DNA of 64,000 nt from Bryoerythrophyllum caledonicum (taxonomy: Eukaryota > Streptophyta > Bryopsida > Pottiales > Pottiaceae): assembly GCA_963971425.1 (NCBI GenBank), contig OZ020515.1, positions 13,966,291 through 14,030,290 of the forward strand. Reading direction: 5' to 3'. This document shows positions 36,191 to 64,000 of the stretch, piece after piece (within the stretch, counting starts at the first letter, position 1; each line of letters opens with the position of its first letter). A program made the position numbers and the translations under genes. A model generated the notes under the pieces. That model had not been told where the DNA came from and made no database searches. It saw only the letters and a program-made list of their open reading frames with translations.

Positions 36191-36335
36191 TCCTTCTTTC
36201 GAGGGTAGACACTATGCAACGCGTAGCCAGAAACCAGCCAAACAAACAACCAACCCCGACCTAACTAACTAACCAAACAAGTAGCAAAGACCACACTCAA
36301 TCAGCCAATTAGGAAGAGTCAAGGCGGCGAAGTAT

Positions 36336-36890
36336 TTAAGGGGGGTCTTGTGTATCAGGGAGGACTTGGTTGTTTTTGATTTTGCGTTTGTGTAGGAGAA
36401 TAGACATGGCATATTGGATAGCGATGGTGTTGATGTTTTTAAAGGTAGTTTTAATTGTGTCAATGGGTATCTTGAGTGTATCTTCTAAGGTTTTCATAGA
36501 TGGGATAAAGGTGGTGGCACGAGTGCCGGATGTGATTACAATAAGGGGGTCGACATTCCATCTGAGGGCAATGATGTTGTCAATAAGGGGTTGATATTTA
36601 TTTATTTTATTTTGGATTGTTTCCGGGGAAAATCTATCGTTGCAGTATGTGAATTCAATGAATTGAATGGTGTAGTCTTGGTTGATGTTATCGGGTGGTG
36701 GGTCATTATATGGTAAACCTTTAACACAAAGGATGTCCGGTTTGAGCCTAGCGTTGCAATGGCATCTTTGGGTCATACAAGAGCATGGGAGTAGCCAAGG
36801 GGGGACTGTATTTTCTTGTGGGTTGATATTAAAAGTGCCGGCGTTCATTAGTATAATACATCTCGATTTGTTGTAAGAGGTGATTAGTTT
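36336..36890 (-). CDS. PD-(D/E)XK-like C-terminal domain, copy 1
   Basis: In frame with, and directly after, the TGA at 36893-36891 (KLITSYNKSRCIILMNAGTF). It contains CSCMTQRCHCNARLKPDILC, then IQFIEFTYCNDRF, then NKINKYQPLIDNIIALRWNV and ITSGTRATTF. The series 'C-rich, (R/K)PD, 15-25 residues, EFT, K-x-x-KY, GW' is what restriction-like endonuclease domains at LINE C-termini show. If the frame is used it depends on TGA readthrough or reinitiation. The catalytic assignment (D of KPD, E of IEFT, K of KY) is inferred. Confidence 0.5.
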   Translation of the reverse strand, partial: KLITSYNKSRCIILMNAGTFNINPQENTVPPWLLPCSCMTQRCHCNARLKPDILCVKGLPYNDPPPDNINQDYTIQFIEFTYCNDRFSPETIQNKINKYQPLIDNIIALRWNVDPLIVITSGTRATTFIPSMKTLEDTLKIPIDTIKTTFKNINTIAIQYAMSILLHKRKIKNNQVLPDTQDPP

Positions 36891-38475
36891 TCAGACTTCC
36901 CATACCGCTTTATTATGTCTTTTAACAATTAGAGAGTGTATGTGGTGGTTTTGGCATTTGAGTAGAACATACAACCATGTGTCGGGGTCCGTTGAGGGGC
37001 ATATGGGGCATGTTGTGGATGGAAATCCTTCTATTCCAAAGAATAGTTGTTTACGAGCGTTTCCCATATATTGACCAGTACGGAATTTGATGAGGCATGT
37101 TATTTGTGAGTCTGAGATGATGGGGTTTTTCCAAAAATTTGTAGAGAGTTCATTATCTATGTCGTTATTGTTAGTCCATTTTTCTATGTTAGGAATATTT
37201 TCTGTGATTGTGTCAAGGTTATTGTAGAGGTCTTGTTTTTTGAGATATTTGCCCAAAAATCTAATTGGGCCTTTGTCAGGGGTATCTTGTTTGGAAGGCC
37301 AATCTTCTTTTTGAAAGTAGTATGGGGTAGCATGGGCATGTTCGTGTGGATCTTTGGCATTTTTGTGTGTTTTTTCTCGGCCTTCTTTTGCTAATTTGTC
37401 TCCTTGTTCGTTGCCATCAATGTTGGCATGAGCTCTCACTTTGTGGAGGGTGGTGATTTGTGTACGATTTTGTAACATTTGGACCATTGATATTAATATG
37501 GTTTGGTCGGGGTGGCTATTGTGAAGGGTAGGGTGTGTTATTTGAGTGTTTAGTAGGTAAAGTGCATTTATACAATCAGTGAATATGTGTGCGGGTTCAT
37601 TTTTGTATTTTGTTGTGATGATTTGTAGTGTTTTGTGAATGGCCATGAGTTCTGCTCTGAGGATATTTTGTAGTCCGTGGAGTCTTTTAGCTAGTTTAAT
37701 TTCTTTGGTAGGGTTATATATGCCATAGCCAGCTTTTTCTCTGCGCCAAGAGCCCGGGCTTATTTGTTCTGGTGGTTTAAAGGAGCCATCAGTGTAATAA
37801 CTGTGTGCGGGATTAAATTTTGGTGTGGTATTAGTTGAGTATTCTGGAAGAGGGGGAGGTGTGACGGAGTAGTTTAATGTGTTGTTGACATAGTTTAGTT
37901 TTGACCAGGTTTTACTTTTGTTTACGGGGGTTTGTATGGGTGTTGGTGGGGCCAGTTTTGTGTACAGCCGGTGTATGTCTAGGCTTTTTGTTATGGAGGT
38001 AAGTTCCGCAAGTTGTTCTAGGGAGCCAAGGGTTTGGTTTCGATGATAGACGCATAGTATTTGTAATGTAGATGGCTCGATTCGGGGTTTTTTTAGCTCG
38101 GGTGGAATGGTAGGTTCTTCGTATGGCATTGTGTCTGCCTCAAATAATGCAATGATATGTGAATCTGGAAATGGGTTTGATTGTTGGTTGTTGTTTTGGT
38201 ACCAATTGTTGTTTGGTGTGATGATGATTGTATCTGTGTTATTTGGATCGTTTTTGGCGGCAAGTCTAGCCCAATGTATGGCTTGTTCCATGTCCTTCTC
38301 GTTGTGGGGGTGAGCTATACCATTACCATTCCATTTATAATCAAAGGCCTTTCCTAGGGATCCAAATATTTTGTCTCTTTCGTAAGGTGAGTAGAATTTT
38401 TTTAGCTTGGTAGAACATGTGACCGGGGAAGAAAAGTATGATTGTTCAATGTCGAAGTATGAGATTAGTGAGTCT
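36891..38475 (-). CDS. Methyltransferase relic, RNase H and Cys/His motif, copy 1
   Basis: The segment begins near FYSPYERDKIFGSLGKAFDY and the degenerate motif AHPHNEKDMEQ, then IIITPNNNWYQ, resembling PCIF1-type adenine methyltransferases with the NPPF motif lost. RNase H follows: YYTDGSFKPPEQ, RAELMAIHKTL, HIFTDCINALYLL and HANIDGNEQGDKLAKEG give D-E-D-D. The end has TCPICPSTDPD and LKCQNHHIHSLIVKRHNKAV, a C-C-H-type zinc motif common just before LINE terminal domains, then TGA at 36893-36891. The ATG at 38291 is internal; the frame is open further upstream and joins the preceding segment through a frameshift near 38490. Confidence 0.75.
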
Positions 38476-38968
38476 AAAATGGGAGTGGGTATTGTGTACT
38501 GCGCATTTTTAGGGGGTCCGTTTTTTGTATTCGGTATTTATATCTTTGATATAACCATATTAGTTCGGTTTCAAAGGATTGGGTCATTGGTTCGATGTTT
38601 GTTGGGGTTTGTAACTTTGTATTATATTGGTTCCATAGCCATTGGAGTCGATTAATAGGGATGGTGTGTAAATGTCGACCATTTTCTTCGTATAGATGTG
38701 CTTGGTTGTTATCTATTTGAATTGTGTTTGAGGATGTAATGATATCAGTTTCGGGGTTACATTTTGTTGAGTAGATGTTTAAGAGTGGGATAATTATGGG
38801 TGGTGTTACGGCTCTTGAGTCTGAGAGTTGTTCTTGGGGGTGGTGGGCTAGGATGATATCCGAGTATGTTTTGTATTGAATTTTTTGGTAGTATTGTTTT
38901 AATTTTTCGATGTTATGTGTGGCAGTATTGTTGTCGTGTCTTGGAAAAAGGTCTCTTGGGGAAGCCAT
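38474..38968 (-). CDS. ORF2 linker after the chromodomain-like segment, copy 1
   Basis: Frame-shifted continuation of the ORF2 body between the chromodomain-like part and the methyltransferase relic, clearly homologous to residues 115-270 of the copy 2 frame at 54199-51788 (IIPLLNIYSTKCNPETD, HLYEENGRHLHTIPINRLQW, FETELIWLYQRYKYRI). No catalytic motif is visible. Confidence 0.6.
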   Translation of the reverse strand: MASPRDLFPRHDNNTATHNIEKLKQYYQKIQYKTYSDIILAHHPQEQLSDSRAVTPPIIIPLLNIYSTKCNPETDIITSSNTIQIDNNQAHLYEENGRHLHTIPINRLQWLWNQYNTKLQTPTNIEPMTQSFETELIWLYQRYKYRIQKTDPLKMRSTQYPLPF

Positions 38969-39366
38969 TTATTGTATGTATTATTATTGTGTTGCCATTG
39001 GCATAGATATTTTGTGTAGTTATTTTGTCTGTTATTTGTGTCTGTGTGTTGGATGTGTTTATGGCGTATGATGTTCTTAATGGGGTATGTGGTAGGGTTT
39101 TTGGGGATGTATGTTGGCGGATGGGGATGGTATGTATGTGGAGGGTTAGGGGGATTGATTGGTGTGGGGATATTTCTTGGGTATATGTTATTGTTGAGGG
39201 TGGTGAATGGATCTTTCAGTATATGAGAGTATGCGTGTATGTTACAAGGAGTAATACTTGTAGTGGGGCATGTTGGATGGCAAAATAGTTGTTTAACAAC
39301 GTTTAAGGCACTTTTTATTAGTTTGGATGGGGTGAAGTGGTAGGTTTTGAAGTCCTCATTGTTCAT
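38899..39366 (-). CDS. Chromodomain-like segment of ORF2, copy 1
   Basis: Starts MNNEDFKTYHFTPSKLIKSA and has a Pro/His/Thr-rich stretch. It then has TTYPIKNIIRHKHIQ and NYTKYLCQWQHNNNTYNKWL followed by PQ. The pattern Y-x-(I/V)-(D/E/K)-x-I, then YL-x-x-W, then N-x-W-x-P matches chromodomains, with Y, W and W at aromatic-cage positions. The frame is lost immediately after by a T-run length change. Confidence 0.5.
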   Translation of the reverse strand: MNNEDFKTYHFTPSKLIKSALNVVKQLFCHPTCPTTSITPCNIHAYSHILKDPFTTLNNNIYPRNIPTPINPPNPPHTYHPHPPTYIPKNPTTYPIKNIIRHKHIQHTDTNNRQNNYTKYLCQWQHNNNTYNKWLPQETFFQDTTTILPHITSKN

Positions 39367-39730: not shown

Positions 39731-42256
39731 CTATACACCGGAGATATGTAGTTGTTCGCCTATACACCGGAGATATGCATTTTTGAGGGAGAAAGCTTCA
39801 AGTCCAAATAGGTTATGTGGGAGTTGTGTTATTGCGTTTGACATACATTTTGGTAATCCACATATGGTTTTTTGTATGGCTATTATTTTTTGATCAAGTT
39901 TTTTGATGGCTGGCATAGAGTATGGTACACCGTAGAAACTATATGCCACACCTGGGCGTAGTACGGTGTCGACCATTTTTATTTTTTGTTTCATGGTGGC
40001 CGGACATGTTGTTAGTTCTTTGCATTGTTCGATGAGTTTCGTGGTTGTAGTGTGAATTTGGATTTTCCATTTTAGTGAAGGAACAAGGTTTGTCCCTAGG
40101 TATATGTATGGTTCATTTTGGTGTAGTGTAGGGATTGGTTGGTTACGGTAGTTGATGTCGGAGGCTTGTATTAGGGCTTTGAAAGTGGTAGGGTTCAATT
40201 TGGATTTGTTTGGGCATCCGGTAACGGCACATTTTGGGACACCTACATCCATACCAGCCCATTTACAATATCTATCAATTTTATTGAGTTGTGTTTGGAT
40301 TGATTTGATTTTGTTGGTTATGGTGGCTAGGTCATCTGCGTATGCCGCAGAGTTTATTGTGGTTTGTGATGTGCCAAAAGTATATCCGTTGTTGCCTCTT
40401 TCAAGCCATCTGAGTAGTGGTTCTAAAAATATAATAAATAGATATGGGCTAAGGGTGTCCCCCTGTATAGTTCCTCTTTGAATGGGTATAGATTTTGTTT
40501 TCCCAAAGTGTTCACCAATGTAGTAAGTGGATGACTTGGAGTAGATGTTTCCAACAAGTATAGTTGCCTCTCTTGGGTAACCAAGGTCCGTCATTATTGT
40601 TAGTAGTCGGGCATGATCTATTGAACCAAAGGCATTTTTGAAGTCAACGTATAATATGTATATATCTTGGTTAGTAAATTTTGCGTCTTCTAGTGCGGCT
40701 ATTATGGTTTGGATTTGTCGAGCGGTACTTCTTTCGGCTCTAAATCCTTCTTGACTATCATGTAGGATTTTGAATTTTTCACCATATGAGGATAGTATAA
40801 AAGTGAGTGTGTTGGTAAAGAGTTTATATATTGTGTTAGCTAGTGCAATTGACCTATGGTTGGGTAGTATTGATGGGTCATCTTTTTTGTATAGTAAGAT
40901 TGTTGCACTTGATTTCCATGAGTCTGGTATTTGTTTTTGTTTATAGCAGTGGGAGAAGAATAGGAATAATAGCTTATGAAATCTTGGGGGCATGTTTTTG
41001 AGTATTGAATTTGGTATTCGATCTAGACCTGGGGCTTTATTGTTATCAAGATTTTGAAGGCATGTGTTATACGTGGCTTTGTTAAAGTATTTATTTAGTG
41101 GAATTTCATGTTCGCCTCGTTTGTCAAGGGTATTTCCATCCAGGTCATGCCATGGGTATTGGCGTACTGCACATGTACATTCGTTTGTATGTTGTGGTTG
41201 GTAATTACATGTTGGTCTGTTGGTTATTGTTTGTTGGTTGAATATTTCATTCGCAATGTCTTCTGGGCTAGTTAGAATATTATTATATTGATCCCTGATA
41301 CAATCCATAGGCGGGGATTCAAGGTTTTTAAAGACTTTTTTGTTGATTTTTTTTGGGCTAGTTTCATATAATTGTCTATATTTTGAAATGGCTTTTTTAA
41401 TGTTATCTTTGGTGTATTTCGTGATTATTTTTCTGGCTTGTATGTTGGCTTTCTTTGCAATTAGTGCGATATCGTTTATCCATGTATCATGGGGAAGGTC
41501 CGGAGGTGGCAGGGTGGGGATTTGAGTGTGTTGTAAAATTAGTAGTTCAGTGCATATGGGGTGATTTCGCCATTGAGGGTTGTTTGTTACCATTCTAATG
41601 GTTTTTCGTATTATATGGTATGTGGTTAGGTGTTGTTTCCAAGTTTTAGAAAGTTTTCGGGGTAAGTATCCGCCTTGTTGAGAAGTTCTGTTTGTCATTT
41701 GGGGTATTGGGGGTGCTCTACAAGTTTGTTCTAGTGTATCAGAGATTTTATTGATGAGTTTGTCTAGGGTGTGGCATGCTTCTTGCCATTGTACTTGTGT
41801 TAGTTGGTTATTATTTTCAAGAGTGTTTATGAGGGAGTCTATTTGTATGGAGTTTTCTTCGAAGAGTTTTGTGTTGAATTTTTCTATGTTGTTTTTTGGA
41901 ATGGGGTTGAGTATGCATGTGGTGTCTTTGTTTAGGATTGTAGGGGTTCTACTAATTAGTGTATTATTTGGAATGTGTAATTGTATGGGTGAGTGGTCCA
42001 AGTTAAGGATAATATCTTTGTTTGTTGTGGAGGTGCATTGTGTATTGTTGTTAGTATTTATGTAGAATCCATCTATTAGACTCCAATCGCTATAATTATA
42101 GCCACCTTGTCTAGAGAATTGTGTATCTGTATTGATGTAAGTGAAGTTTAAGTTTTCTGTGAAGCGGCGCCATTGGTAATCAATATTTGGGGGGGGGGGT
42201 GATGGTTTCCATTTTGGCGGCCAATTAGCGCTATGTCTCTGTTGAAATCTCCACAT
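39731..42256 (-). CDS. APE endonuclease C-terminus and reverse transcriptase, copy 1
   Basis: About 841 residues. The first 90 complete the endonuclease (WSLIDGFYINTNN, LDHSPIQLHIPN: the S-D-G and D-H motifs). The RT has APGLDRIPNSILK, SWKSSATILLYKKDDPSILP, NHRSIALANTIYKLF, GFRAERSTARQIQTIIAALE, YVDFKNAFGSIDHARLL, IQRGTIQGDTLSPYLFIIFL and the catalytic SAAYADDLATI. This is a complete non-LTR type RT with fingers, palm and thumb. The N-terminal junction is a frameshift at a G10 run near 42190. Confidence 0.9.
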   Translation of the reverse strand: MWRFQQRHSANWPPKWKPSPPPPNIDYQWRRFTENLNFTYINTDTQFSRQGGYNYSDWSLIDGFYINTNNNTQCTSTTNKDIILNLDHSPIQLHIPNNTLISRTPTILNKDTTCILNPIPKNNIEKFNTKLFEENSIQIDSLINTLENNNQLTQVQWQEACHTLDKLINKISDTLEQTCRAPPIPQMTNRTSQQGGYLPRKLSKTWKQHLTTYHIIRKTIRMVTNNPQWRNHPICTELLILQHTQIPTLPPPDLPHDTWINDIALIAKKANIQARKIITKYTKDNIKKAISKYRQLYETSPKKINKKVFKNLESPPMDCIRDQYNNILTSPEDIANEIFNQQTITNRPTCNYQPQHTNECTCAVRQYPWHDLDGNTLDKRGEHEIPLNKYFNKATYNTCLQNLDNNKAPGLDRIPNSILKNMPPRFHKLLFLFFSHCYKQKQIPDSWKSSATILLYKKDDPSILPNHRSIALANTIYKLFTNTLTFILSSYGEKFKILHDSQEGFRAERSTARQIQTIIAALEDAKFTNQDIYILYVDFKNAFGSIDHARLLTIMTDLGYPREATILVGNIYSKSSTYYIGEHFGKTKSIPIQRGTIQGDTLSPYLFIIFLEPLLRWLERGNNGYTFGTSQTTINSAAYADDLATITNKIKSIQTQLNKIDRYCKWAGMDVGVPKCAVTGCPNKSKLNPTTFKALIQASDINYRNQPIPTLHQNEPYIYLGTNLVPSLKWKIQIHTTTTKLIEQCKELTTCPATMKQKIKMVDTVLRPGVAYSFYGVPYSMPAIKKLDQKIIAIQKTICGLPKCMSNAITQLPHNLFGLEAFSLKNAYLRCIGEQLHISGV

Positions 42257-42675
42257 AATAGGTATGTATGATTGGGATTATTATTAATTTGGGATGTAAT
42301 AGTGTTTTGTATATCTAGGAGGAATCTAGTATCCTCGGGATGGGATGGCATATACATGTGAAAGATTAACCACGGTTGAAGTGGATGATTAGTGATTTTG
42401 ATTATTTGGATGTATGGTGATATGTGCATTGGGGTAGGGATTTTGTTAATGTTGCCCGGGAAAGCATATTTTTTGTGTATTAGTGTGAGTAGGCCACCGC
42501 GGCCCGGTGTGTATGGTCTTCGTTGTTGAATGCATCTTGTAAGTGCATGTGTGTTGTTAAAGATGAGTTTATAGTTTTGAAATATATTTTGTATGCATTT
42601 TGTAGATTTTGTGGCAGTTAGTTTTGTTTCTTGTATAACTATGAGGGCCAATGGTGTGTCTATGTGTGTGACCAA
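42148..42675 (-). CDS. APE-type endonuclease N-terminal part, copy 1
   Basis: Contains LALIVIQETKLTATKSTKCI (catalytic Glu in QET), RRPYTPGRGGLLTLIHKKYA and YLLCGDFNRDIALIGRQNG (GDFN). These are the exonuclease/endonuclease/phosphatase fold motifs used by LINEs to nick target DNA. It is joined to neighbouring segments through frameshifts at G runs near 42775-42800 and 42190-42200. Confidence 0.85.
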   Translation of the reverse strand: MVTHIDTPLALIVIQETKLTATKSTKCIQNIFQNYKLIFNNTHALTRCIQQRRPYTPGRGGLLTLIHKKYAFPGNINKIPTPMHISPYIQIIKITNHPLQPWLIFHMYMPSHPEDTRFLLDIQNTITSQINNNPNHTYLLCGDFNRDIALIGRQNGNHHPPPQILITNGAASQKT

Positions 42676-43750
42676 AGTTTGCAGGCTGGGGAGGGCAGTG
42701 TTTAGTGAGGAGGCATTCCATGTGATTATGTATGTCTTTTCTTGGCTTGATCTTATGTTTTGATTTTGTGGGGGGGGTGTAGGGAAGAGGTGGGGGGGGG
42801 TGAGTGTATTCTGGTATAGGGTCTAGGCATTTTAGTGATTCATTAATGAGTTTGTTAGAGAGGTAAGGGAATTTTAGTTTTATTGTTTCATTTGACGGGG
42901 GTACTGTTTGGCTATGTAGAAAGTCATATAAGTCTTTGTGTATTGAGTTCTCATGGTTTATAATATTTTGGTTGTCTTCAAGGAACTTTGTATAGGGGTG
43001 CACAATGTGGATGTGTCGTTCTGGTGGATTTTGTAAATTTAGTAAATTTTCTAGAAGTGTATTGATCCATGTAATTGTGTTTAAGTTTTGTATGTTTAGG
43101 AGATGGTTACATTCATCTATGTGTGGGTGGGTAGTGACTACTAGGGCATATAGAATGTGGGGTGGTGGGTGCGTATTTTTTTGTTGTATGAATTGGGCAA
43201 TGTTTGGGTGTGTATTGTTATGTGTGTGATGTAATGTGTGTGTGATTTTTAAGAAAGGTGCGAAGGATTTTGCAATGTGTTTATATTCCGGTTGTAGTTT
43301 TATGGTATTAGGTATGAAGTAAATTTTTGCATTTTTTTTATGTGAAGTAGGGTGTCTTTTTAGTATATTAGGCATGGGTCCTGGGTTAGTTTCTATGTCA
43401 CCCCCTAGAAGTAGTAGGAGTTTATGGTATGTATGTTTAGTGTTATGTTTTGATGTTGTTGTTGTTGTTGTTGTTGTTATTGTTTGTTTGTGTGTAATTT
43501 GATGGGGCTTTGTTATGTTATTATAGGCTTGTTTGTTTGGGGGTAGGTGGGTGTTTATTTTTTGTATGCGGGTAATGTGTTTTTTGTTAATCTTTTTTAT
43601 GGTGGGAATAACTAATTTTTTAGGTGTACATGTGTTTGTTTGCATAGTTGCTTTTGTTTTATTAGTGTTTTGTAGATGTGTGTATATTTGTTTATATATA
43701 TATTTTTTGGTTGTGTTTGGTCTTGTGTATATGTGTTCGGAGACCGGCAT
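42569..43750 (-). CDS. ORF2 head with 2A-like motif, copy 1
   Basis: The frame begins MPVSEHIYTRPNTTKKY, is rich in T, N, K and H, then has HTYHKLLLLLGGDIETNPGP followed directly by MPNILKRHPTSHKK. The following 270 residues, shared with copy 2, have no named domain and lead into the endonuclease. The frame upstream to 44440 is also T/N/Y-rich with a TAA at about 43981, so the real ORF2 start is unclear. The first codons overlap the GC-rich hairpin phrase GCCGGTCTCCGAA also seen at 50.96 and 58.44 kb. Confidence 0.7.
   Translation of the reverse strand: MPVSEHIYTRPNTTKKYIYKQIYTHLQNTNKTKATMQTNTCTPKKLVIPTIKKINKKHITRIQKINTHLPPNKQAYNNITKPHQITHKQTITTTTTTTTSKHNTKHTYHKLLLLLGGDIETNPGPMPNILKRHPTSHKKNAKIYFIPNTIKLQPEYKHIAKSFAPFLKITHTLHHTHNNTHPNIAQFIQQKNTHPPPHILYALVVTTHPHIDECNHLLNIQNLNTITWINTLLENLLNLQNPPERHIHIVHPYTKFLEDNQNIINHENSIHKDLYDFLHSQTVPPSNETIKLKFPYLSNKLINESLKCLDPIPEYTHPPPPLPYTPPTKSKHKIKPRKDIHNHMECLLTKHCPPQPANFGHTHRHTIGPHSYTRNKTNCHKIYKMHTKYISKL
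43376..43426 (-). promoter_or_regulatory. 2A-like ribosome-skipping motif, copy 1
   Basis: LLLLLGGDIETNPGP|M. The D-x-E-x-N-P-G-P core of 2A peptides is complete, with a hydrophobic run before it as in 2A sequences reported from animal and trypanosome non-LTR elements. Skipping would release the T/N-rich leader and leave Pro as the first residue of the downstream protein. Confidence 0.75.
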
Positions 43751-44439: not shown

Positions 44440-46260
44440 TCACATTTTTGGCGGTCCATCTTCAATTCTTGGTGTGCTCATGGCTTCGGTTAAGGCTTGT
44501 AATGATGCAAGAGTTGCACTCATCGTTTGTTGAATGTTGAGCATTTGGGTCTTCAATTCATCACTCTTCTTGTCCGCATATGCTTGAGTTTCTCTTCGTA
44601 TTTTCTTGTTGCTTTCTTCCACCACGGTCTCCACTATGGCAAGGATATCTTTCTTCGTGATGCTTTGAGGTGTTTCTTCCATTTTGAAGGCCTCCACGGT
44701 GTTAACAATGGCTTTGTTAACATCCGTGAAGCCAAATTCCTCTACTTGCTCCTTGGTAGGAGGCTCAATTCCATCAAGGCTTCTTCTATGTGGGGCAAAA
44801 TCCACATAGTGGCCTCCTAGCTTGATGACCTTGCCCACGAACTTCCTGTAGATTATAGCATTAGCACAATGGACATTGGCACTTCCATTGTGCCTATGTC
44901 CATTGTCACGATGGAACCAAATGTGATTTATGTTACCTATACCCATAACTTTGTGGATTTCAACACTAGTGTCATCAACATTCATACGAATAGGTAATTG
45001 GGTTAGAGTTAGGGTAATGGCATCCTTCTTTGCCTTACTCTCCCGTGTGTTGCCACTTGAGGATTCTCCTGCATTGCCCGTTGGTTGGAGCATTTCATGG
45101 TTGGTGGCAACGTGATGTAACTTAATCTTTGCCGCTTGTTGTGGGGTTGGTGCGATAATGAATGCATGGCTCTCTTCTTTCCCTTTCTGCACACTAGTTA
45201 CTTCAAACTCAAGCCCACGGTTAAAACTATTACTAAGAATGTCCACAAAGAGGAAGTTAGCTGAAATGCCCTTGAGAGACTCACTTTTAATTTTTGTGGA
45301 GAGATTAGAGTTTCTTGCAATGGCATGATAGATTTTACATACTTTTCCTATCACATATTGTTTATTTAACTTGAGGATGAAAGGTCTTAGACCTTTTAGG
45401 AGGTTTATGCCATCAATCTCAGGGTTAAGAAGGTGCAATTTAATTGAACCCGCCCAAACTCCTCTCTTCCCGGCATTTTTCACACTCATGCAAAGGATGG
45501 AAATAGGGTCAATGATCTCATTACCTACTTCAATTTCCATGAATTTTAGTCTTTCAATCACCAAGATTTTGACATCATCATGCATGAGGGTAAGATTATC
45601 AACCTCAAAGTGGATGGACACATGAAAATCAAGGGCAAGTCCGGTAGTGTCACTTACCGGGATGTCAAATGGTATTTGGGTTATGTTGTAGTGTTGTCCA
45701 ACCGACTCCTTCCTTGCACATGGGTAGAAGATTTGAGGGATTCGTGGGAATGCCGGAGTTGCTAGGGTGATTTCTTTGGCCTCCACTTCTTTAATTCCTC
45801 TTGTTATCATGTCGGGTATGGTCTCATCATTGATTAGTGGCTCAAGTCCCTCCTCCTTGGCCATATCCTCCATAACTTGAAATCCCAACCAAAATTTGAA
45901 GGAGGAAACAACGGGTTCGAGATAGTGCACCATACCTTCCTCATTGGAGCTCTTCTTCTTCTTGTTGGAGGGAGATATTCCATCTTGGCTTGTTGTAGAA
46001 GCAATGCTTGGGTGTCTCTTAATTTTTTCACCGGATGCGTCAATTTCCATGTCGTCTCCATACATAAGAGTCCTTCTGCTGCTCCATTGTTCCATATCTA
46101 TACCTTGCTCATACACTTGTTGAGGTGAACTAGAGCTTTTAAAGCTATGTAACTTGTATTTTGGTTTTAGTTTTGGTTTTGAACGCTGATTTTTTGTGAT
46201 ACTAGTTAGTTTACATAGAGCTTTTGTTATTTTGATTAATTGTGGAACACATATATGCAA
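44440..46260 (-). CDS. Retrotransposon ORF1 protein, copy 1 (intact)
   Basis: About 606 residues with no stop. The conserved core, shared with copy 2, includes FKFWLGFQVMEDMAKEEG, DMITRGIKEVEA, FPRIPQIFYP, FDIPVSDTTGLALDFHVSIH, GSIKLHLLNPEIDGINLLKG, GKVCKIYHAIARNSNLSTKI, LEFEVTSVQKGKEESHAFII and APTPQQAAKIKLHHV. The last 100 residues are charged and helical (coiled-coil-like). It has no CCHC zinc knuckle, RRM motif or esterase motif that I can name. By position it should be the RNA-binding/chaperone ORF1 product. A GTAAGT donor at about 46287 (minus) just upstream hints at a 5' exon. Confidence 0.65.
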   Translation of the reverse strand: MHICVPQLIKITKALCKLTSITKNQRSKPKLKPKYKLHSFKSSSSPQQVYEQGIDMEQWSSRRTLMYGDDMEIDASGEKIKRHPSIASTTSQDGISPSNKKKKSSNEEGMVHYLEPVVSSFKFWLGFQVMEDMAKEEGLEPLINDETIPDMITRGIKEVEAKEITLATPAFPRIPQIFYPCARKESVGQHYNITQIPFDIPVSDTTGLALDFHVSIHFEVDNLTLMHDDVKILVIERLKFMEIEVGNEIIDPISILCMSVKNAGKRGVWAGSIKLHLLNPEIDGINLLKGLRPFILKLNKQYVIGKVCKIYHAIARNSNLSTKIKSESLKGISANFLFVDILSNSFNRGLEFEVTSVQKGKEESHAFIIAPTPQQAAKIKLHHVATNHEMLQPTGNAGESSSGNTRESKAKKDAITLTLTQLPIRMNVDDTSVEIHKVMGIGNINHIWFHRDNGHRHNGSANVHCANAIIYRKFVGKVIKLGGHYVDFAPHRRSLDGIEPPTKEQVEEFGFTDVNKAIVNTVEAFKMEETPQSITKKDILAIVETVVEESNKKIRRETQAYADKKSDELKTQMLNIQQTMSATLASLQALTEAMSTPRIEDGPPKM

Positions 46261-46429
46261 AACATAGATGGCGAGGGTGAAGTGACTTACCTGGCTTGTT
46301 GGGTCGGAGCTGTGGGGAGGTGGGGTGTTGTGGTCGAGGTCGTTGAAGAAGGTAGGGGGGTCGCAACTCTGGTTGGGGGGGTCGTTACTCCATCTAGGAA
46401 GGTCGCTGCTCCTATTGGGAAGGTCACTG

Positions 46430-46625
46430 TTTGCGTGGGGGAGGTCTTTGCGCCGTGCAGGGAGTCGCTGCGCCTTGCAGGGAGGTCGCTACGCCTTGCA
46501 GGGAGGTTGCTGCGCCATAAAGGGAGGTCGTTGCGCCATGCAGGGAGGTCTCTGCGCCGTGTAGGGAGGTCGTTGCGCCGTGCAGGGAGGTCGCTGCGCC
46601 GTGCAGGGAGGTCGCAGTCTCCGCC
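46430..46625. repeat. 21-bp minisatellite GGGAGGTCGCTGCGCCGTGCA
   Basis: About nine units, each a multiple of three, so several frames stay open through it (7-residue repeat). It lies immediately 5' of ORF1 of copy 1 and may be part of its 5' UTR. Confidence 0.85.
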
Positions 46626-50945: not shown

Positions 50946-50953
50946 CATTCAGA

Positions 50954-51787: not shown

Positions 51788-54199
51788 TCAGACTTCCCAT
51801 ACCGCTTTATTATGTCTTTTAACAATTAGGGAGTGTATGTGGTGGTTTTGGCATTTGAGTAGAACATGTAGCCATGTGTCGGGGTCCGTTGAGGGGCATA
51901 TGGGGCATGTTATGGATGGAAATCTTTCTATTCCAAAGAAGAGTTGTTTGCGGGCGTTTCCCATGTATTGACCGGTACGGAATTTGATAAGGCATGTTAT
52001 TTGTGAATCGGTGATGATGGGGTTTTTCCAAAAATTTGTAGAGAGTTCATTGTCTATGTCATTGTTGTTAGTCCACTTTTCTATGTTAGGAAAGTTGTCT
52101 GTGATTGTGTCAAGATTGTTATGTAGGTCTTGTTTTTTGAGGTATTTGCTCAAGAATCTGACCGGGCCTTTATTGGGGGCGTCTTCTTTGGAGGGCCAAT
52201 CTTCTTTTTGGAAATAGTAAGGGGTGGCATGGGCGTGTTCATGTGGGTCTTTGGCATTTTTATGTGATTTTTCTCTTCCTTCTTTTGCAAGTTTATCTGC
52301 TTGTTCGTTGCCATCAATATTAGCATGGGCTCGGACTTTGTGGAGGGTTGTGATTTGTTCTCTTTTTAGTATCATTTGGACCATTGATTCTAGTATGATT
52401 CGGTTGGGGTGACTATTATGGAGGGTAGGATGTGTTATTTGGGTGTTTAATAAATATAGTGCGTTAATGCAATCTGTAAATATGTGCACCGGTTCATTGT
52501 TGTATTTTGTTGAGACGATTTCTAGTGTTTTGTGGATGGCCATTAGTTCTGCTCTGAGGATATTTTGCAGTCCATGTAGTCTTTTGGCTAGTTTGATTTC
52601 TTTCGTAGCGTTGTATATTCCATAACCGGCTTTTTCTCTGTGCCAAGATCCCGGGCTAATTTGTTCTGGCGGTTTAAAGGAGCCATCAGTATAGTAGCTA
52701 TATTCGGGGTTAAATTTAGGTGGGGTGTTAGTTTGATACTCCGAGAGGGGTGGGGGTGTTAAGATGTAGTTTAGTGTATTGTTATTGTAGTGTAGTTTTG
52801 ACCATTTTTTGCTTCTGTTGACGGGTGTTTGCATTGGCATTGGTGGGGCCAATTTTGTGAGTATCCGGTGTACGTTTAGAGTCTTTGCTATGGAAGAGAG
52901 TTCTTCTAGTTGTTCTTGTGTGCCTAGAGTATGATTTTGGTGGTGGATGCATATTATTTGTAGGGTGGATGATTCAATTCTGGGTGTTTTTAGATCTAGT
53001 GGGATGGTGGGTTCTTCATATGTTATTGAATCCGCTTCGAATATTGTGATGATGTGTGTATCGGGAAAGAGGCCCGAGTGTGGATTATGATTTTGGTACC
53101 AGTTTTTGTCTGGGGTTATGATTAGGGTGGAGGTGTGGTTTGGGTCGTGTTTGGCCGCGAGGTGGGCCCAATGTAGAGCTTGTTGTGTTTCTTCTTCATT
53201 GTGTGGGTGGGCCATACCATTACCTATCCATTTGTGGTCAAAGGCTTTGCCTAGTGATCCGAATATTTTATCTCTTTCAAAGGGGGAGTAAAATTTGTTG
53301 AGTTTGGTGGGGCATGTGACAGGGGAGGAGAAATATGAGTGTTGGATGTTGAATGTGGATATTAGTGAATTAAGTATAGGTGTGGGTAGTGTATATTGTG
53401 TAAGTTTAAGGGGGTTATTTTTTGGTAATCTATATTTATATCTTTGGTATAGCCAAATGACTTCGGTTTCGAACGGTTGGGTTGTTGGTTCAATGTTTGT
53501 AGGGGTTTGTAGTTTAGTATTGTATTGGTTCCACAACCATGTGAGCCTAGTGATTGGGATGGTAAAAAGATGCCTTCCATCTTCTTCGTATAAGTGTGCT
53601 TGGTCTTTGTCAATTTTTATTGTGTTAGATGAGGTGAGAGTGTCTTTTTCGGGGTTGCATTCCGTTGTGTAGATGTTTAGTAGGGGAATTATTGTGGGTG
53701 GGGTGACAGACCTTGTGTCTTGGGGTTGGTTTTGTGGGTGGTGAACTTGGATAATTTCGGTGTAGAATTTGTATTGAGTTCTTTGATAATATTGTGTCAA
53801 TTTATTTGTGTTGTGTGAAATGGTGTTTAGGTTGTGTCTTGGGAAGAGGTTTCTTTGGGGGAGCCATTTGTTGTAAGTGTGGTTATTGTGAGTCCATTGG
53901 CATAGATATCTAGTGTAATTGTTTTCTATTTGGTTTTTATCTATTTTTTCCTTGTATTCGTGGTGTATGATGTTGTCAATGGGATAGGTGGTGGGATTTT
54001 TGAGGATGTGGTTTGGGGGGTGGGGGTGGTGTGGGTGGTAGTAGGGAGGGTGGATCGATTGTGTGGTGATATTTCTTGGGGTGATATCATTGTTTATAGT
54101 GATGAATGGGTCTCTAATTGTATGAGAGTATGTATGTGTATTGGTATGTGTATTGGGTGGGGGGGGGATATATTGGGTGACAAAAGAGTTGTCGTGCAA
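51788..54199 (-). CDS. Chromodomain-like, methyltransferase relic, RNase H and Cys/His motif, copy 2
   Basis: 803 open codons. Residues 71-125 are chromodomain-like (TYPIDNIIHHEYKEK, YTRYLCQWTHNNHTYNKWLP). Residues 300-425 are PCIF1-like (FYSPFERDKIFGSLGKAF, KWIGNGMAHPHNEEE, LIITPDKNWYQ); AHPH replaces the catalytic NPPF, so no activity is expected. Residues 500-640 are RNase H (YYTDGSFKP, RAELMAIHKTLE, HIFTDCINA, HANIDGNEQADKLAKEG). Residues 760-800 are a C-x-x-C...H..L..C..H motif (TCPICPSTDPDTWLHVLLKC). It ends at TGA, with the next domain in frame. Confidence 0.75.
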   Translation of the reverse strand: MHDNSFVTQYIPPPPNTHTNTHTYSHTIRDPFITINNDITPRNITTQSIHPPYYHPHHPHPPNHILKNPTTYPIDNIIHHEYKEKIDKNQIENNYTRYLCQWTHNNHTYNKWLPQRNLFPRHNLNTISHNTNKLTQYYQRTQYKFYTEIIQVHHPQNQPQDTRSVTPPTIIPLLNIYTTECNPEKDTLTSSNTIKIDKDQAHLYEEDGRHLFTIPITRLTWLWNQYNTKLQTPTNIEPTTQPFETEVIWLYQRYKYRLPKNNPLKLTQYTLPTPILNSLISTFNIQHSYFSSPVTCPTKLNKFYSPFERDKIFGSLGKAFDHKWIGNGMAHPHNEEETQQALHWAHLAAKHDPNHTSTLIITPDKNWYQNHNPHSGLFPDTHIITIFEADSITYEEPTIPLDLKTPRIESSTLQIICIHHQNHTLGTQEQLEELSSIAKTLNVHRILTKLAPPMPMQTPVNRSKKWSKLHYNNNTLNYILTPPPLSEYQTNTPPKFNPEYSYYTDGSFKPPEQISPGSWHREKAGYGIYNATKEIKLAKRLHGLQNILRAELMAIHKTLEIVSTKYNNEPVHIFTDCINALYLLNTQITHPTLHNSHPNRIILESMVQMILKREQITTLHKVRAHANIDGNEQADKLAKEGREKSHKNAKDPHEHAHATPYYFQKEDWPSKEDAPNKGPVRFLSKYLKKQDLHNNLDTITDNFPNIEKWTNNNDIDNELSTNFWKNPIITDSQITCLIKFRTGQYMGNARKQLFFGIERFPSITCPICPSTDPDTWLHVLLKCQNHHIHSLIVKRHNKAVWEV

Positions 54200-54239
54200 T
54201 TTTTAGGGCACTTTTAATAAGTTTTGATGGGGTGAAGTG

Positions 54240-54640: not shown

Positions 54641-56205
54641 TAAGGTATGCATTTTTTTAGTGAGAAGGCTTCTAGTCCAAATAGGTTGTGTGGTAGTTGG
54701 GTAATTATGTTAGACATACATTTTGGCATGCCGCAAACGGTTTTTTGTGTGGTAGTTATTTTTTGGTCCAGTTTTTTGATGGCGGGCATTGAGTATGGTA
54801 CCGCGTAGAAGCTGTATGCCACGCCCGGTCTTAAAATTGTGTCGATCATTTTTATTTTTTGTTTCATAGTGGCCGGACAAGCTACTAGTTCTTTGCATTG
54901 TTTGATTAATTTTATGGTGGTGGCATGAATTTGGGTTTTCCATTTTAGGGAGGGGACGAGACTTATTCCTAGATATGTGTATGGTTCGTTTTGGTGTAGA
55001 ACGGGTATTTGTTGGTTTCGGTAATTAATGTTAGAGGTTTGTATTAGGGCTTTGAATGCGGTGGGGTTTGTTTTTGATTTATTTGGGCATCCAGTGATGG
55101 CACATTTTGGGACCCCTACATCCATACCTGTCCATTTGCAGTACCTATCTATTTTGTTAATTTGTATTTTTATGGCTTTGATTTTGTTGGTTATGGCCGC
55201 AAGGTCGTCCGCGTATGCCGTGGAGTTGATGGTGGTTTGTGATGTCCCGAATGTGTATCCATTGTTGCCTCTATCTAGCCATCTAAGTAGTGGTTCTAGG
55301 AATATAATAAATAAATATAGGCTTAGGGTATCTCCTTGTATTGTTTCCCTTTGGATGGCTATGGGTTTGGTTTTACCAAAGTGTTCTCCTATGTAGGAAG
55401 TTGAGGATTCGGAGTATATATTTCCCACTAGTGCGGTGGCGTCTTTGGGGTATCCAAGGTCCGTCATTATGGCTAAAAGTCTAGCGTGGTCAATAGAGCC
55501 GAAGGCATTTTTAAAGTCGACATACAGTATAAATATGTCTTGGTTTGTAAATCGTGCATCTTCTAATGCGGCTATTATTGTTTGGATTTGTCTAGCGGTG
55601 CTTCTTTCTGCGCGGAATCCTTCTTGACTATCATGCAGTATTTTATGTTTTTCGCCATATGATGATAGTATTGATGTGAATGTGCTCATAAATAGTTTAT
55701 AGATGGTATTGGCTAGTGCGATGGATCTATGGTTCGGTAGCATGGATGGATCTCCTTTTTTGTATAGTAGGATCGTTGCACTTGTTTTCCATGAAGCGGG
55801 GATTTGTCTTTGTTTGTAGCAGTGGGAGAAGAAGAGGTTTAGTAGTTTGTGGAACCTTGGGGGCATAATTTTTAGGATAGAGTTCGGTATGCGGTCCGGT
55901 CCGGGGGCTTTGTTATCTCCTAGGTTACGTAGGCATGAGTCATATGTAGCTTGATTAAAGTATGTGTGTAACGGGGTTTCCGGATCTCCTCTTGTTTCTA
56001 ATGTGAATCCATCTAGGTCATGCCATGGATATTGTCGTACTGCGCATGTGCATGTAGTGCGGTGGTCCGGTTGATAGTTGTATGTTTTTACCGTAGGTGT
56101 GTTGTTTTTTGTTTGTTGGTTAAATATTTCGTTTGCAATGTCTTCTGGGCTAGTTAGTATATTGTTATATTGGTCGATGATGCAGTCTAATGGTGGGGAC
56201 TCCAT
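54640..56205 (-). CDS. Reverse transcriptase domain, copy 2
   Basis: 521 residues with KAPGPDRIPNSILK, SWKTSATILLYKKGDPSMLP, GFRAERSTARQIQTIIAALE, YVDFKNAFGSIDHARLL, IQGDTLSLYLFIIFLEPLL and STAYADDLAAI. All RT palm motifs including YADD are present. The fragment ends in SLKKCIP* through a frameshift where copy 1 continues. Confidence 0.88.
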   Translation of the reverse strand: MESPPLDCIIDQYNNILTSPEDIANEIFNQQTKNNTPTVKTYNYQPDHRTTCTCAVRQYPWHDLDGFTLETRGDPETPLHTYFNQATYDSCLRNLGDNKAPGPDRIPNSILKIMPPRFHKLLNLFFSHCYKQRQIPASWKTSATILLYKKGDPSMLPNHRSIALANTIYKLFMSTFTSILSSYGEKHKILHDSQEGFRAERSTARQIQTIIAALEDARFTNQDIFILYVDFKNAFGSIDHARLLAIMTDLGYPKDATALVGNIYSESSTSYIGEHFGKTKPIAIQRETIQGDTLSLYLFIIFLEPLLRWLDRGNNGYTFGTSQTTINSTAYADDLAAITNKIKAIKIQINKIDRYCKWTGMDVGVPKCAITGCPNKSKTNPTAFKALIQTSNINYRNQQIPVLHQNEPYTYLGISLVPSLKWKTQIHATTIKLIKQCKELVACPATMKQKIKMIDTILRPGVAYSFYAVPYSMPAIKKLDQKITTTQKTVCGMPKCMSNIITQLPHNLFGLEAFSLKKCIP

Positions 56206-56870: not shown

Positions 56871-58253
56871 TTAGTGATCAGAATTCAGTTGAATGTTATT
56901 GTCTGTTGTGGAAGTAAATGTGGTATGGTTAGTTGCATGTACGTAGAATCCATCAATTAGGCTCCAGTTGTTATAGTTGTATCTTCCTTGTCTAGAGTAT
57001 GTAATGTTTGTGGGAATATAATTGAAGTTTAGATTTTCAGTAAATTGTTTGTATTGTAGGTCTATTATTTGTGGTGGTGTGTGTTCGTTTCCGTTTTGTC
57101 TGCCTATGAGGGCAACGTCTCTATTGAAGTCACCACATAAGATGTGGTTGTGGTTGGGATTATTGGTGATATGGGTGGTGATGTTAGTTTTGATGTCCTC
57201 GGTGAGTCTGATGTCTTCGGGGTGGGATGGCATGTATATATGGTGGATTAGCCATGATTGTAATGGGTGATTGGAGATTTCCATAATTTGGAGGTATGTG
57301 GATATGTTCATTGGGGTGGGGATTTTTTTAACATTGTCTGGAAAGGCGTAATTTTTGTGTATGAGGGTGAGGAGGCCCCCTCGGCCCGGTGTATATGGTC
57401 TTCTTTGTTGTATGCATCGTGTTAGGTCATGTGTATTATTGAAAATAAGTTTGTAGTCGGGAAATAGTCTTTGTATGTATTTTGTGGATTTTGTGGTCGA
57501 TATTTTTGTTTCTTGTATGACTATGAGTGCCGGTGGTGTGTTAGTGTGTATAATTATGTTTTGTAGGTTTGGGAGCGCAGTGTTTAGGGATGAGGCATTC
57601 CATGTTATTATGCTTGTATTGTTGTTCGTATGTGGATTATGGTTTTGTGGTGGGATGTAGTTTGGTGGTGGGGGTGGATGCGTGTATTCCGGGAGGGGGT
57701 TTAGGCATTTTAGTGCCTCATTTATGATAGTGTTAGGGAGGTAGGGAAATCTTTGTTTTAACATGTCATTTGTTGGGGGTGTATTTTGGTTGTGTATAAA
57801 GTCATATAGTTCTTTGTTTATCGATGTGTTGTGGGTTATGATGTTTAAGTTGGATTCAAAAAATGTTGTGTGAGGATGTGGGGTACTAATGTGTCTTTCG
57901 GGGGGGTTTTGTAGATTATGTAGAGTGTGAAGGAGTGTATTGGTCCATTGGGTTATGGTTTGATTTTGTGTGTTTAGGAGTTGATTGCAGAGGTCTATGT
58001 TGGGGTGTATAGTGATGGCTAGGGCATATAGAATGTGGGAAGGAGGATATTCGTTGTGTTGGTTTATATATGTGGCGATATGTGGGTATGCGTTATTATG
58101 TTGTTGATGTAATATATGTGTGGTTTTGAGAAGGGGGGCAAATTTTTGGGCGATGTGTTCGTATTCGGGTTGTAGCTTTATGGTATTTGGTATGAAATAT
58201 GTTTTAGCATTGTTTTTGTGTGAATTGGAGTGTCTTTTTAATATGTTCGGCAT
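56871..58253 (-). CDS. Post-2A region and APE endonuclease, copy 2
   Basis: 460 residues starting MPNILKRHSNSHKNNAKTYF directly after the 2A motif. The endonuclease has SIITWNASSLNTALPNLQN, PPALIVIQETKISTTKS, GRGGLLTLIHKNYAF, HILCGDFNRDVALIGRQNG and NWSLIDGFYVHA. It ends NSDH*, where copy 1 has DHSPIQ, so TCA changed to TAA just before the final motif. This is the only copy with an unbroken endonuclease frame. Confidence 0.85.
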   Translation of the reverse strand: MPNILKRHSNSHKNNAKTYFIPNTIKLQPEYEHIAQKFAPLLKTTHILHQQHNNAYPHIATYINQHNEYPPSHILYALAITIHPNIDLCNQLLNTQNQTITQWTNTLLHTLHNLQNPPERHISTPHPHTTFFESNLNIITHNTSINKELYDFIHNQNTPPTNDMLKQRFPYLPNTIINEALKCLNPLPEYTHPPPPPNYIPPQNHNPHTNNNTSIITWNASSLNTALPNLQNIIIHTNTPPALIVIQETKISTTKSTKYIQRLFPDYKLIFNNTHDLTRCIQQRRPYTPGRGGLLTLIHKNYAFPDNVKKIPTPMNISTYLQIMEISNHPLQSWLIHHIYMPSHPEDIRLTEDIKTNITTHITNNPNHNHILCGDFNRDVALIGRQNGNEHTPPQIIDLQYKQFTENLNFNYIPTNITYSRQGRYNYNNWSLIDGFYVHATNHTTFTSTTDNNIQLNSDH

Positions 58254-58304
58254 AGGTCCTGGGTTAGTCTCTATGTCTCCTCCTATTAATATTAGTAGAT
58301 TGTA
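58254..58304 (-). promoter_or_regulatory. 2A-like ribosome-skipping motif, copy 2
   Basis: YNLLILIGGDIETNPGP|M. The core GGDIETNPGP is identical to copy 1, although the upstream residues differ (NLLILI versus KLLLLL) and the upstream frame has decayed within about 40 codons. Confidence 0.75.
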
Positions 58305-61175: not shown

Positions 61176-61688
61176 GCCATAGACATGTATAATTGGGGTG
61201 TATTTTCATATATTGAATTTGGAGGTAGTACAATGTTACTATAAGGTGTAGTCTCTCTTTGAGTCTACTACTCATCCTGTGGAAAGATTGTGTTTGTGAG
61301 GATCTATTGAGAGATATGACTATTGATAGAGAGGCTTGGCAATTAGAGAGATGAAAATGATCTAATAGAGTAGTGAGAGAGTGTAAGGTATTATTTATTG
61401 AGAGTGGGAATACTATAGAGTGAAGACAATTTCTAAAGAAGATCAAACTTAGCATATGTGTGGGGGGAATTACATTAAAGAGAGTTGGGAGAGGAAAATC
61501 TGTGGGAGGGGTAGAAAGGAGATATGATTGTATATCTAATGAGAGTAAAGGTGTTATAAATATGTAAGAGAAATCTACCTTGTGAAATATAAGAGAGGGA
61601 AGAAACATATTGAGGAGACTAGGATAAATGAGAGATAAGGGTAGATGGTGAATCACCCAATGGTGATGCCGTCGTGGGTAGTCCTTGG
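61176..61688 (-). other. ORF1-ORF2 junction, copy 2
   Basis: A minus frame opens over the ORF1 stop and runs to 61012 (PRRHHHWVIHHLPLSLIYPS), hydrophobic and Ser/Leu-rich. It is unlike copy 1 and probably spurious. Confidence 0.35.
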
Positions 61689-64000
61689 TCAATCCACGTT
61701 TGATGGGTCGTTCGAGGGTGGGACGGAGAGCGCCGGGCCGCCACTGTTGATGTCTTGCATCACTGACAAGGCATTCAACATTAGTAGTTCCACCTTCTTG
61801 AGTTTGGTTTGTACCTCCTCCGTGCGTGTGTCGGTATACTCCCTAGTCTCCCGAATGATGTCTTCTTTGAAAGAAGAGAGCTCCAAGCGAAGTTGCTTGT
61901 GGCTTTCTTCCATGATTGCAGTCACTTCCTCCCGTAGAGTGCTGGTGTTGTTGGGGGTGTTCGTCATGGAGGCCACGGTGTTGACTAGCGCCGTGTTAAT
62001 ATCATTGAACCCCCATTTTGTTACCAAGGTGTCAGATGGCGGGTTATTACCTTCCAAGCTTCGACAATGTGGTCTAACCTCCACTTGATGCAGTCCAATG
62101 TTAAAAGTCTTGTTAAGGTGTTGCCGATACACAATAGGGTTGAGAACTTCGACATTGGTGGAACCATTGTGCTTGCCATCTTCTTTTCTGTGAAACCATA
62201 CGTTGACAACATTCTTGGCCTCCAAAGCATGAGTGATGGCAGCCGTGGTATCATCCACGCTCATGAGGATGGGTAGCTGGGAGAGGGTGAGTGTTAAGGC
62301 ATCCCTCTTGGCTCTGTCACTGGTGTTAAAAACACTAGAGCTACTAACCTTGGCAGGGAGGATCTCTTGGAAAGTCGTGATTTGATGGCGCTCCAACTTC
62401 TTCGCTTGTGTGGGGGTAGGTGCAACAATCCAAGCATGGGAGTCTCCTGACTCCTTCTGCACGTCTGTCACCTCGAATTCAAGGTTTCTATCGAAACCAT
62501 TCTTCACTACATCATAAAATAGTGCTCGTGCGGTGATGCCCTTGAGGTTGTTGCTTTTGATGCGGACCGAAAGGCCCTGGCGAGCCACCGCGTGCCATGT
62601 TTTGCACACCTTCCCCAAGGTCACTGGGCCTAATGGGTCAAGAGGCAAAACGAAGTAACGGGTGCCGCGAAGGAGGGCGATAGCATCAGTCTTAGGGTGG
62701 AGTAAGTGCAACTTGATAATACCTGAAAACACACCCTTCTACCCCTCTTTTTTGACCCCTTTGCAAAGGATTGCGAGGGGGTCAATGAGATTAGTACCCA
62801 ATGCTATGTCCATATGTCTAAGTCTAGCCCTAGAGAGTTTTTTAATGTCATCGTGGAATAGAGGTTGACTAGGCAACTCAAAATGTATAGCGATGTGGAA
62901 ATCGTTAGATAATCCAGTCTCAATGTTAGTAGGAATGTCAAAGGATAATTGTGTGATGTTGAAGTGTTGACCTTCAACACCGTCATTTCTCACCTTGGGG
63001 TAGAGTAACTGTGGGATCCTGGGGAAAGCTATTGTGGCCTCCAAAGCTTCCTCAGCTTCACTCTTGGGCACACCTCTTGTGATCATATCTGTGATACTCT
63101 CTCCTTTCTGCAAGACGGTTTGCCCTACATCTTGTGCGAGCTTCTCCATGGTGGAGAAACCAAGCCAGAAGTGGAATATAGATATAGCAGGTGAAGATAC
63201 ATGGTCTGTGGTTTGGGAATTACCTCTTGGTTTTTTGTGGGGGTTATGTGCCTTGGCAGAAGTGGAGGCTGAGGTCCTGTCTGGGATGGTTTGCCTGTGG
63301 TTGCTTCTCGGGGTTTCGATGTCCATTGCCTCTTCCTCTACTCGAGTCTCTTATTGCAGTTGCATTGTTTCTTGTGCAAGTAGCGTCCTAGGTCGAGAGA
63401 GAGATTGAGTGGGGCTGACCGGGGAGGCGGGGGATGTGTCATGGGCGAGTCGCATCATGCTTCCGCCTTGGCTTTGGCTGTTGGCGGGCTCCGATATTGG
63501 GGTTTGGACGGGTGCTGTCGATGCCTTCTTTAGTCTCGGCGATGTGCGGGTTATCGGTGCTGATGTCTGGCGTCTGCTTTTCTGACCGTTGGCTCTTGCG
63601 GATGCTGTAGGGACGCGGTTGCTGGCTTTCGTGTTGGCGTCGAGGCTAACTGCGAGTTGTTGACGTTCTTCCAGTATCGGCTCCTCTTGGTCTTCGTCAC
63701 TCTCTGCTACTGCTGGTATGTAGGTCCGTTTTCTCCTGCCGATGCGCTTCTTCGGGTGATCTACTTCTGCGCCTCTTTTCTCCTGTGTTCTCGGTCTCAA
63801 GGCTAAGGTTGGCAGCACGTCGTTGGGGTCTCCGGGGATTTTGGTTCTCCTTGCTGTTGGCTGCGGGGCTACGGCAGTGCTGCGATTGCTGTTGGTGTTA
63901 GGTACATTTGCTGGAGCTCCTACTTGGCTGTCTTGGGTCTGTTCGTCTGTTGACGATTTGATGATGATTCTGCGTTTGTGTGATTGTTGTCGTGCTTGCT
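61689..64000 (-). pseudogene. Retrotransposon ORF1, copy 2 (partial at window edge)
   Basis: The frame is open from the window edge (basic, Ser/Pro/Arg-rich N-terminus with KRRIIIK and KKRIGRRKR). It is interrupted by TAA at 63351-63353 and TAG at 62739-62741, and ends PSNDPSNVD*. The core matches copy 1: FHFWLGFSTMEKLAQDVGQ, DMITRGVPKSEAEEA, FPRIPQLLYP, GIIKLHLLHPKTDAIALLRG, GKVCKTWHAVARQGLSVRIK, SHAWIVAPTPTQAKKLERHQ. Where copy 1 has GKRGVWAG this copy has G*KGVFSG, so the TAG probably replaced a Lys codon. The last 90 residues are helical (EESHKQLRLELSSFKEDIIR). Confidence 0.7.

Follow-up and report, generated by a model that had tools for sequence, protein, structure and literature searches.

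The window analysed here is a 64,000-nucleotide stretch of the Bryoerythrophyllum caledonicum genome (Bryopsida; assembly GCA_963971425.1, contig OZ020515.1, positions 13,966,291 to 14,030,290). Its minus strand carries two copies of one group of long interspersed nuclear elements (LINEs), or non-long terminal repeat (non-LTR) retrotransposons (Table 1). Copy 1 extends from 36190 to at least 46488, with its 5' end not located, and is missing the element's 3'-terminal ~109 bp; copy 2 extends from ~50951 past the window edge. No element match was found in the stretch separating them (~48,500-50,950). DNA identity between 36190-43468 of copy 1 and 51061-58347 of copy 2 is 77.4%, and frameshifts disrupt both copies. 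Each has an upstream open reading frame (ORF1), a 2A sequence, and a very large ORF2 (pol). The initial annotation of this DNA described a large non-LTR retrotransposon with the same module order in both copies, and Pfam returned that order (Exo_endo_phos, RVT_1, a weak Chromo, PCIF1_WW, and RNase_H). We are close to certain of the identity and architecture of the element, a giant pol with an apurinic/apyrimidinic endonuclease (APE), a reverse transcriptase (RT), a chromodomain, a PCIF1-like module, RNase H, a CCHC motif, and an R2-type restriction-like endonuclease (RLE) in one frame. The earlier interpretation is supported overall, and structure prediction upholds its chromodomain, PCIF1, and RLE readings. 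Its description of the element as present "in two copies" is too narrow; this is a large repeated group in the genome.

Searches of the home genome assembly (437 Mb, 894 contigs) score the best candidates only, and scored counts are lower bounds, not totals. The genome has 58 matches to the light-harvesting family PF00504, which indicates a photosynthetic eukaryote. A copy 1 query spanning PCIF1, RNase H, and CCHC gave 79 scored matches of 9178 first-look candidates, all 79 at 91% or more; a 3087-amino-acid (aa) frame occurs in 32 of the 79 and a 2809-aa frame in 14 (hand count). Six 3087-aa frames were fetched, at five loci, and this frame (one printed, one cut into domains) contains 2A, APE, RT, chromodomain, PCIF1, RNase H, CCHC, and RLE by motif. 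Pfam confirmed RT, PCIF1, and RNase H in the intact genome copy, where APE rests on motifs and on alignment to the window copies. A genome search with PF12237 (PCIF1_WW) scored 150 of 2614 candidates, all 150 over the cut-off. There was no PF12237 match in 14 control genomes, a weak control because none is known to be a eukaryote. The spacing from RT to the 3' end is 5.45-5.50 kb in at least six pairs, the window's own included; since it is constant, these six paired RT/3'-end matches include no copy that lacks the middle modules. Two genome copies are identical across 9,894 bp. Because intact copies are identical, the group has probably been active recently in this genome.

Selection was estimated as the ratio of nonsynonymous to synonymous substitution rates (dN/dS). 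Comparing families A, B, and C11 through their intact frames gives dN/dS values of 0.07 for RT, 0.04-0.07 for the chromodomain, 0.13 for PCIF1, 0.11-0.15 for RNase H, 0.09-0.10 for APE, 0.09-0.14 for RLE, 0 for the short CCHC motif, and 0.05-0.22 for inter-module stretches. Between the degraded window copies it is 0.13 for PCIF1 and 0.39 for the chromodomain stretch. These ratios show purifying selection on all modules.

PF12237 scores over its curated cut-off in both window copies, and structure prediction supports the PCIF1 fold. The NPPF motif of PCIF1, a cap-specific m6Am methyltransferase (structure 6irx), aligns with HPHN of the window copies. NPPF was found in none of the 42 (of 53) aligned proteins that have letters at the motif site; these read HPHN (20), HPHT (7), HPPP (2), NPEY (2, both distant), and 11 others once each. 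No WW domain match was found in the 10 window ORFs scanned (Pfam, E up to 1). The element has the fold and Pfam family of PCIF1 and differs from it in the replaced NPPF and in giving no WW match in these ORFs. The initial annotation called the module a methyltransferase relic: the PCIF1 affinity stands, with NPPF replaced, but because dN/dS is 0.13 the module is, by this measure, not a relic.

The chromodomain-like segment has the predicted fold of a chromodomain, but its Pfam scores (15.1 and 16 bits in the window copies) fall under the curated cut-off of 25.1. By eye, profile A1 has Y or F in most rows and the invariant W at the presumed methyl-lysine cage positions.

The RT is of LINE type by Pfam, comparison with the PDB, and a tree. 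Among solved structures it is nearest to R2 (4.8e-29, against 1.2e-16 for L1). The PD-(D/E)XK-like terminus of the initial annotation is retained, with CCHC followed by an R2-type PD-(D/E)XK fold, as modelled in the predicted structure of relative P0002, to which the window RLEs are 63% identical. An RLE profile gave no R2 match by sequence against PDB sequences, and the match is by fold only. Both APE and RLE keep catalytic-type motifs (by eye). The CCHC and RLE parts (36336-37097 and 51245-51994) have a dS of 0.23-0.30 between the window copies, compared with ~0.85-1.39 elsewhere. Because this dS is low relative to the rest of the element, the 3' parts seem to share a younger common origin, which we read as exchange of the 3' part. 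An identical in-frame TGA precedes the RLE in each window copy. Recoding or readthrough is not favoured, because the codon is Arg in the intact relatives that reach it and in the printed intact genome copy. The PCIF1-RNase H-CCHC genome query stops just before this codon, so it is uninformative on it; the 3087-aa frames read through.

LINEs with 2A near the protein start exist; to our knowledge, none of them carries these additional modules. The 2A core GDIETNPGP lies directly before Met in both window copies, and 2A was found in four further relatives. ORF1 lies upstream in both copies (42-51% aa identity between them), and copy 1 ORF1, the only one scanned, gave no Pfam match. The copy 2 ORF1 piece at 61689-62738 has 116 scored genome matches, and ORF1 and PCIF1 lie on the same strand, in that order and 7.0-7.3 kb apart, at at least eight genome places (hand-paired). 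In family B, a 1229-aa ORF1 frame overlaps ORF2. Family A has no ORF1 match inside the element at the five loci fetched, and its ORF1 may be supplied in trans. The copy 2 leader contains a 123-bp minisatellite of eight units (59087-60061), and relative C11_14.7 has similar 41-aa repeats in frame with pol (3764-aa frame).

The 3' end is a structured region of ~120 bases common to seven copies, with a UUCG hairpin followed by a TTC-repeat tail. Folding the seven aligned copies gives 45 predicted pairs, two of them with changes on both sides, and a small covariation term (-0.28). Most of this region is missing from copy 1. Rfam returned no family at gathering score for the 3' end, and 40 genome matches were scored of 2622 candidates, all at 96% identity or more.

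Insertion sites were examined at 25 loci, picked from the best matches. Target site duplications (TSDs) of 10-13 bp are present at 21 of the 25 and are 12 bp long at 14 of these; the remaining four comprise one locus with N in the flank, two without a TSD, and one with 7 bp only. Between the TSD and the reference start are 0-32 extra bases (60 at C4:2.19, less sure). The first TSD base is T in 21 of 21 (p 6e-9 under a T null of 0.41), a probability of ~1e-4 by our own estimate after allowing for ambiguity with the tail T. The two element ends differ, with no long terminal repeats, and the TSDs and (TTC)n tail are those expected of a LINE. LINE sequence flanks both sides at 17 of 24 readable sites (15 antisense, 2 sense), one side at two, and neither side at five; this count admits matches down to 68% identity and repetitive leader stretches.

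Relatives were sought among proteins, where the copy 2 ORF retrieved 47 and the RT 285, of which 120 were listed. P0002 holds the RT end, chromodomain, PCIF1, RNase H, CCHC, and RLE in one frame. Among 23 proteins with at least 450 residues past the RT end, PCIF1 occurs in 17, and chromodomain and PCIF1 are both present in 12 of 12 near relatives. The six without PCIF1 are five distant relatives and P0119, which was discarded as an artefact because its sequence stops within RT. The PCIF1 profile was built from 13 sequences inside the searched set, and those rows match by construction. A fairer count, because the copy 2 ORF query contained PCIF1, comes from the listed RT-search matches only: 9 of 14, with P0119 dropped. 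Where at least 330 residues precede RNase H, PCIF1 is present in 14 of 14 (copy 2 included), mostly from PCIF1-containing queries. Distant PCIF1 matches lie over the Pfam cut-off in P0139 (1.5e-10), P0158 (1.2e-7), P0166 (3.3e-11), and P0167 (9.4e-14), the last two retrieved by a PCIF1 query, and under it in P0151 (6e-5) and P0127 (0.004). A PHD finger separates RT from PCIF1 in P0151 (4.9e-6) and, by eye, seemingly also in P0158 and P0166. A single frame of P0166 (2125 aa) unites RT, PCIF1, RNase H, and a zinc motif, with RLE by eye only; RLE was found in P0167 by profile (3e-6). In an RT tree of 36 rows, the window copies fall in a 10-row clade (100/100) within a 29-row clade (100/99) separate from R2 and from P0159, P0162, and P0163. 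The tree's references are R2 and one L1, and a root between them is unsupported (66/11 at the fork). No relative was found in viral contigs (P0002 and RT-alignment scans) or in prokaryotic genome contigs (RT-alignment scan).

Dual-endonuclease LINEs include Dualen/RandI of Chlamydomonas, which encodes APE together with a PD-(D/E)XK-like nuclease (PMC3636483) and has RNase H (PMC4640811); excerpts of the cited papers are the basis for these and the following comparisons. The window element shares with Dualen/RandI the presence of APE and RLE in one element, RNase H, and short-repeat tails instead of poly(A) (PMC3636483, PMC4640811, PMC3747384). In contrast, those excerpts mention no chromodomain, PCIF1-like domain, or 2A in Dualen, the comparison being by description only. 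No LINE whose ORF2 contains PCIF1 or a chromodomain was found in the literature covered, which lies outside most subscription papers and curated repeat libraries. Because of this and the Dualen/RandI description, we place the element as a variant within dual-endonuclease LINEs; as judged from its modules, it belongs to that kind and is set apart by the added chromodomain and PCIF1-like modules. R2 combines ZF/Myb with RT, CCHC, and RLE, and its target is a single rDNA site (PMC6895275). The window element has the CCHC and RLE fold of R2, and its RT is nearest to that of R2 among solved structures, but it adds APE, RNase H, a chromodomain, and a PCIF1-like domain, and its sites are dispersed. 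Capture of chromodomains is described for LTR elements of oomycetes, and chromoviruses (Ty3/gypsy) likewise carry a chromodomain in a retroelement polyprotein (PMC5348765). However, those are LTR elements with integrase, whereas here the chromodomain is placed in a LINE, after RT and before RNase H. Celine, a poplar LINE, is nested in centromeric elements and, like the window element, lies mostly inside other elements; unlike it, Celine has an ordinary endonuclease and RT and, per its authors, no chromodomain (PMC11288735).

Table 1. Features of the two element copies in the window.
Feature	Position	Strand	Evidence
Copy 1 3' untranslated region, 3'-truncated, ends within first conserved hairpin	36190..36335	-	
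Copy 1 C-terminal RLE, R2-type PD-(D/E)XK, downstream of TGA	36336..36890	-	
Copy 1 TGA stop, Arg in intact relatives	36891..36893	-	
Copy 1 CCHC motif then RHNKAV helix, R2-like	36894..37097	-	alignment A3
Copy 1 RNase H	37380..37802	-	PF00075 6.4e-12
Copy 1 PCIF1-like module, over two frames; AHPHN 38301-38315, ANPPF position	38040..38767	-	PF12237 1e-8
Copy 1 chromodomain	38944..39123	-	PF00385 0.022; profile A1
Copy 1 RT core; AYADDLA 40325-40345	39836..41068	-	PF00078 3.6e-26; PDB R2 4.8e-29
Copy 1 APE endonuclease, over two frames	41981..42735	-	PF03372 6.1e-6; motifs
Copy 1 2A core, Met directly after	43376..43399	-	sequence pattern
Copy 1 ORF1, gag-like by position	44440..46488	-	42-51% aa identity with copy 2 ORF1; no Pfam match
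Copy 2 structured conserved 3' end, two hairpins (GNRA-type, UUCG loops), then (TTC)n tail	50951..51088	-	seven-copy alignment and fold
Copy 2 RLE	51245..51787	-	
Copy 2 TGA, as in copy 1	51788..51790	-	
Copy 2 CCHC motif	51791..51994	-	
Copy 2 RNase H	52277..52696	-	PF00075 5.6e-14
Copy 2 PCIF1-like module; AHPHN 53198-53212	52907..53668	-	PF12237 4e-11
Copy 2 chromodomain	53798..54022	-	PF00385 0.012
Copy 2 RT core	54735..55941	-	PF00078 1.2e-23
Copy 2 APE endonuclease	56871..57614	-	PF03372 4.6e-6
Copy 2 2A core, Met directly after	58254..58277	-	
Copy 2 ORF1, two pieces in one frame	61689..63350	-	

Elsewhere in the window, a 1.5-kb palindrome (13864-15406) is 97.9% identical to its own reverse complement, and a short array of TTTAGGG-like units lies at 6874-6976. 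Two adjoining ORFs with one stop between them (26743-28761) match halves of DDE_Tnp_1_7 (6e-37 and 4e-31); in our own reading they would encode a piggyBac-type transposase. A 965-aa ORF with DUF7869 (2856-5753; 5.5e-42) is perhaps another mobile element, and an NLI-interacting-factor-like phosphatase is encoded at 22541-23395 (1.8e-18).

The composite might be a nesting artefact, an ordinary LINE into which pieces of other elements or genes have inserted; in favour of this, nested LINEs occur frequently at the loci examined, and both copies in the window are broken. This reading appears extremely improbable: a single 3087-aa frame covers 32 of the 79 scored matches, the same order recurs in metagenome-type proteins of other sources (P0001, P0002) and in P0166, which has 33% identity to the query's PCIF1 part, and the RT/3'-end pairs all keep the same spacing. 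It is also quite improbable that the PCIF1-like module is a decaying, functionless relic carried by the rest of pol. NPPF is absent from 42 of 42 aligned proteins and dN/dS is higher than for RT (0.13 against 0.07), but the value of 0.13 holds both between intact families and between window copies, and the module is kept in all 12 near relatives of sufficient length. An active adenine methyltransferase (RNA or DNA) with an unusual motif, marking element RNA or cDNA, is improbable, as the motif's Asn and aromatic residue are missing from HPHN, HPHT, HPPP, and the like in the close family. Other LINEs get by with one nuclease, and one endonuclease here might be functional with the other kept for DNA binding. 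Catalytic-type motifs and purifying selection in both APE and RLE make this unlikely.

Several observations weigh against parts of our interpretation. The Pfam APE model has no match in the intact genome copy (E up to 1), and the chromodomain there, as in the window copies, is under the cut-off (E 0.09, 13.2 bits), with the third of three cage aromatics seemingly absent (by eye). The 2A copy before pol in relative C11 reads NPRP. No PCIF1 match occurs in distant relatives P0123, P0124, P0129, P0141, and P0142, whose sequences continue for 461-729 residues past RT, and P0124 (729 residues) weighs most against universality of PCIF1 in distant relatives. Nesting in LINEs may only reflect LINE abundance, the loci being best matches, and Celine, which has no chromodomain, also sits largely inside other elements (PMC11288735). 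Recent activity is read from identity, not from expression, and we infer the roles of the modules, cap binding, and the strand choice of the endonucleases.

With these points considered, we hold it likely that the elements form a dual-endonuclease non-LTR retrotransposon group, probably recently active, with the module roles proposed here. The 2A would free pol from its leader, and pol would bind the 3' RNA structure. The chromodomain would dock on chromatin that carries methyl-lysine marks, older LINE arrays for example; whether it targets insertion is evenly balanced in our judgement. One endonuclease, more likely APE, would nick the first strand, target-primed reverse transcription would begin, and RNase H would remove the template. 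RLE would then make the second cut ~12 bp away on a branched junction, a proposal made because R2 protein is reported to cleave an open four-way junction (PMC6895275). The order of APE first and RLE second falls a little short of an even prospect. The PCIF1-like domain would most likely bind the element's capped mRNA but not methylate it, a way to ensure that the transcripts used are full-length; cap binding itself is put forward tentatively. A wider proposal, which we regard as doubtful, is that in a broad dual-endonuclease LINE clade two parts of pol have long been maintained in working order, a chromatin reader (a chromodomain or, in some members, a PHD finger) and a PCIF1 fold that lacks the catalytic motif. 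The reader would aim insertion at marked chromatin or old LINE arrays, the PCIF1 fold would hold the element's own mRNA by its capped 5' end for full-length copies, and the nucleases would share first- and second-strand cuts.

Second-strand cutting and chromatin choice by LINEs are open questions on which this element bears. As a probably recently active element with two nucleases and a chromatin-reader fold, it would make both addressable module by module. For a retroelement to conserve a PCIF1 fold that lacks the catalytic motif would, if true, put a cap-methyltransferase fold to a new use, and it suggests that RNA selection by LINEs may use the 5' cap.
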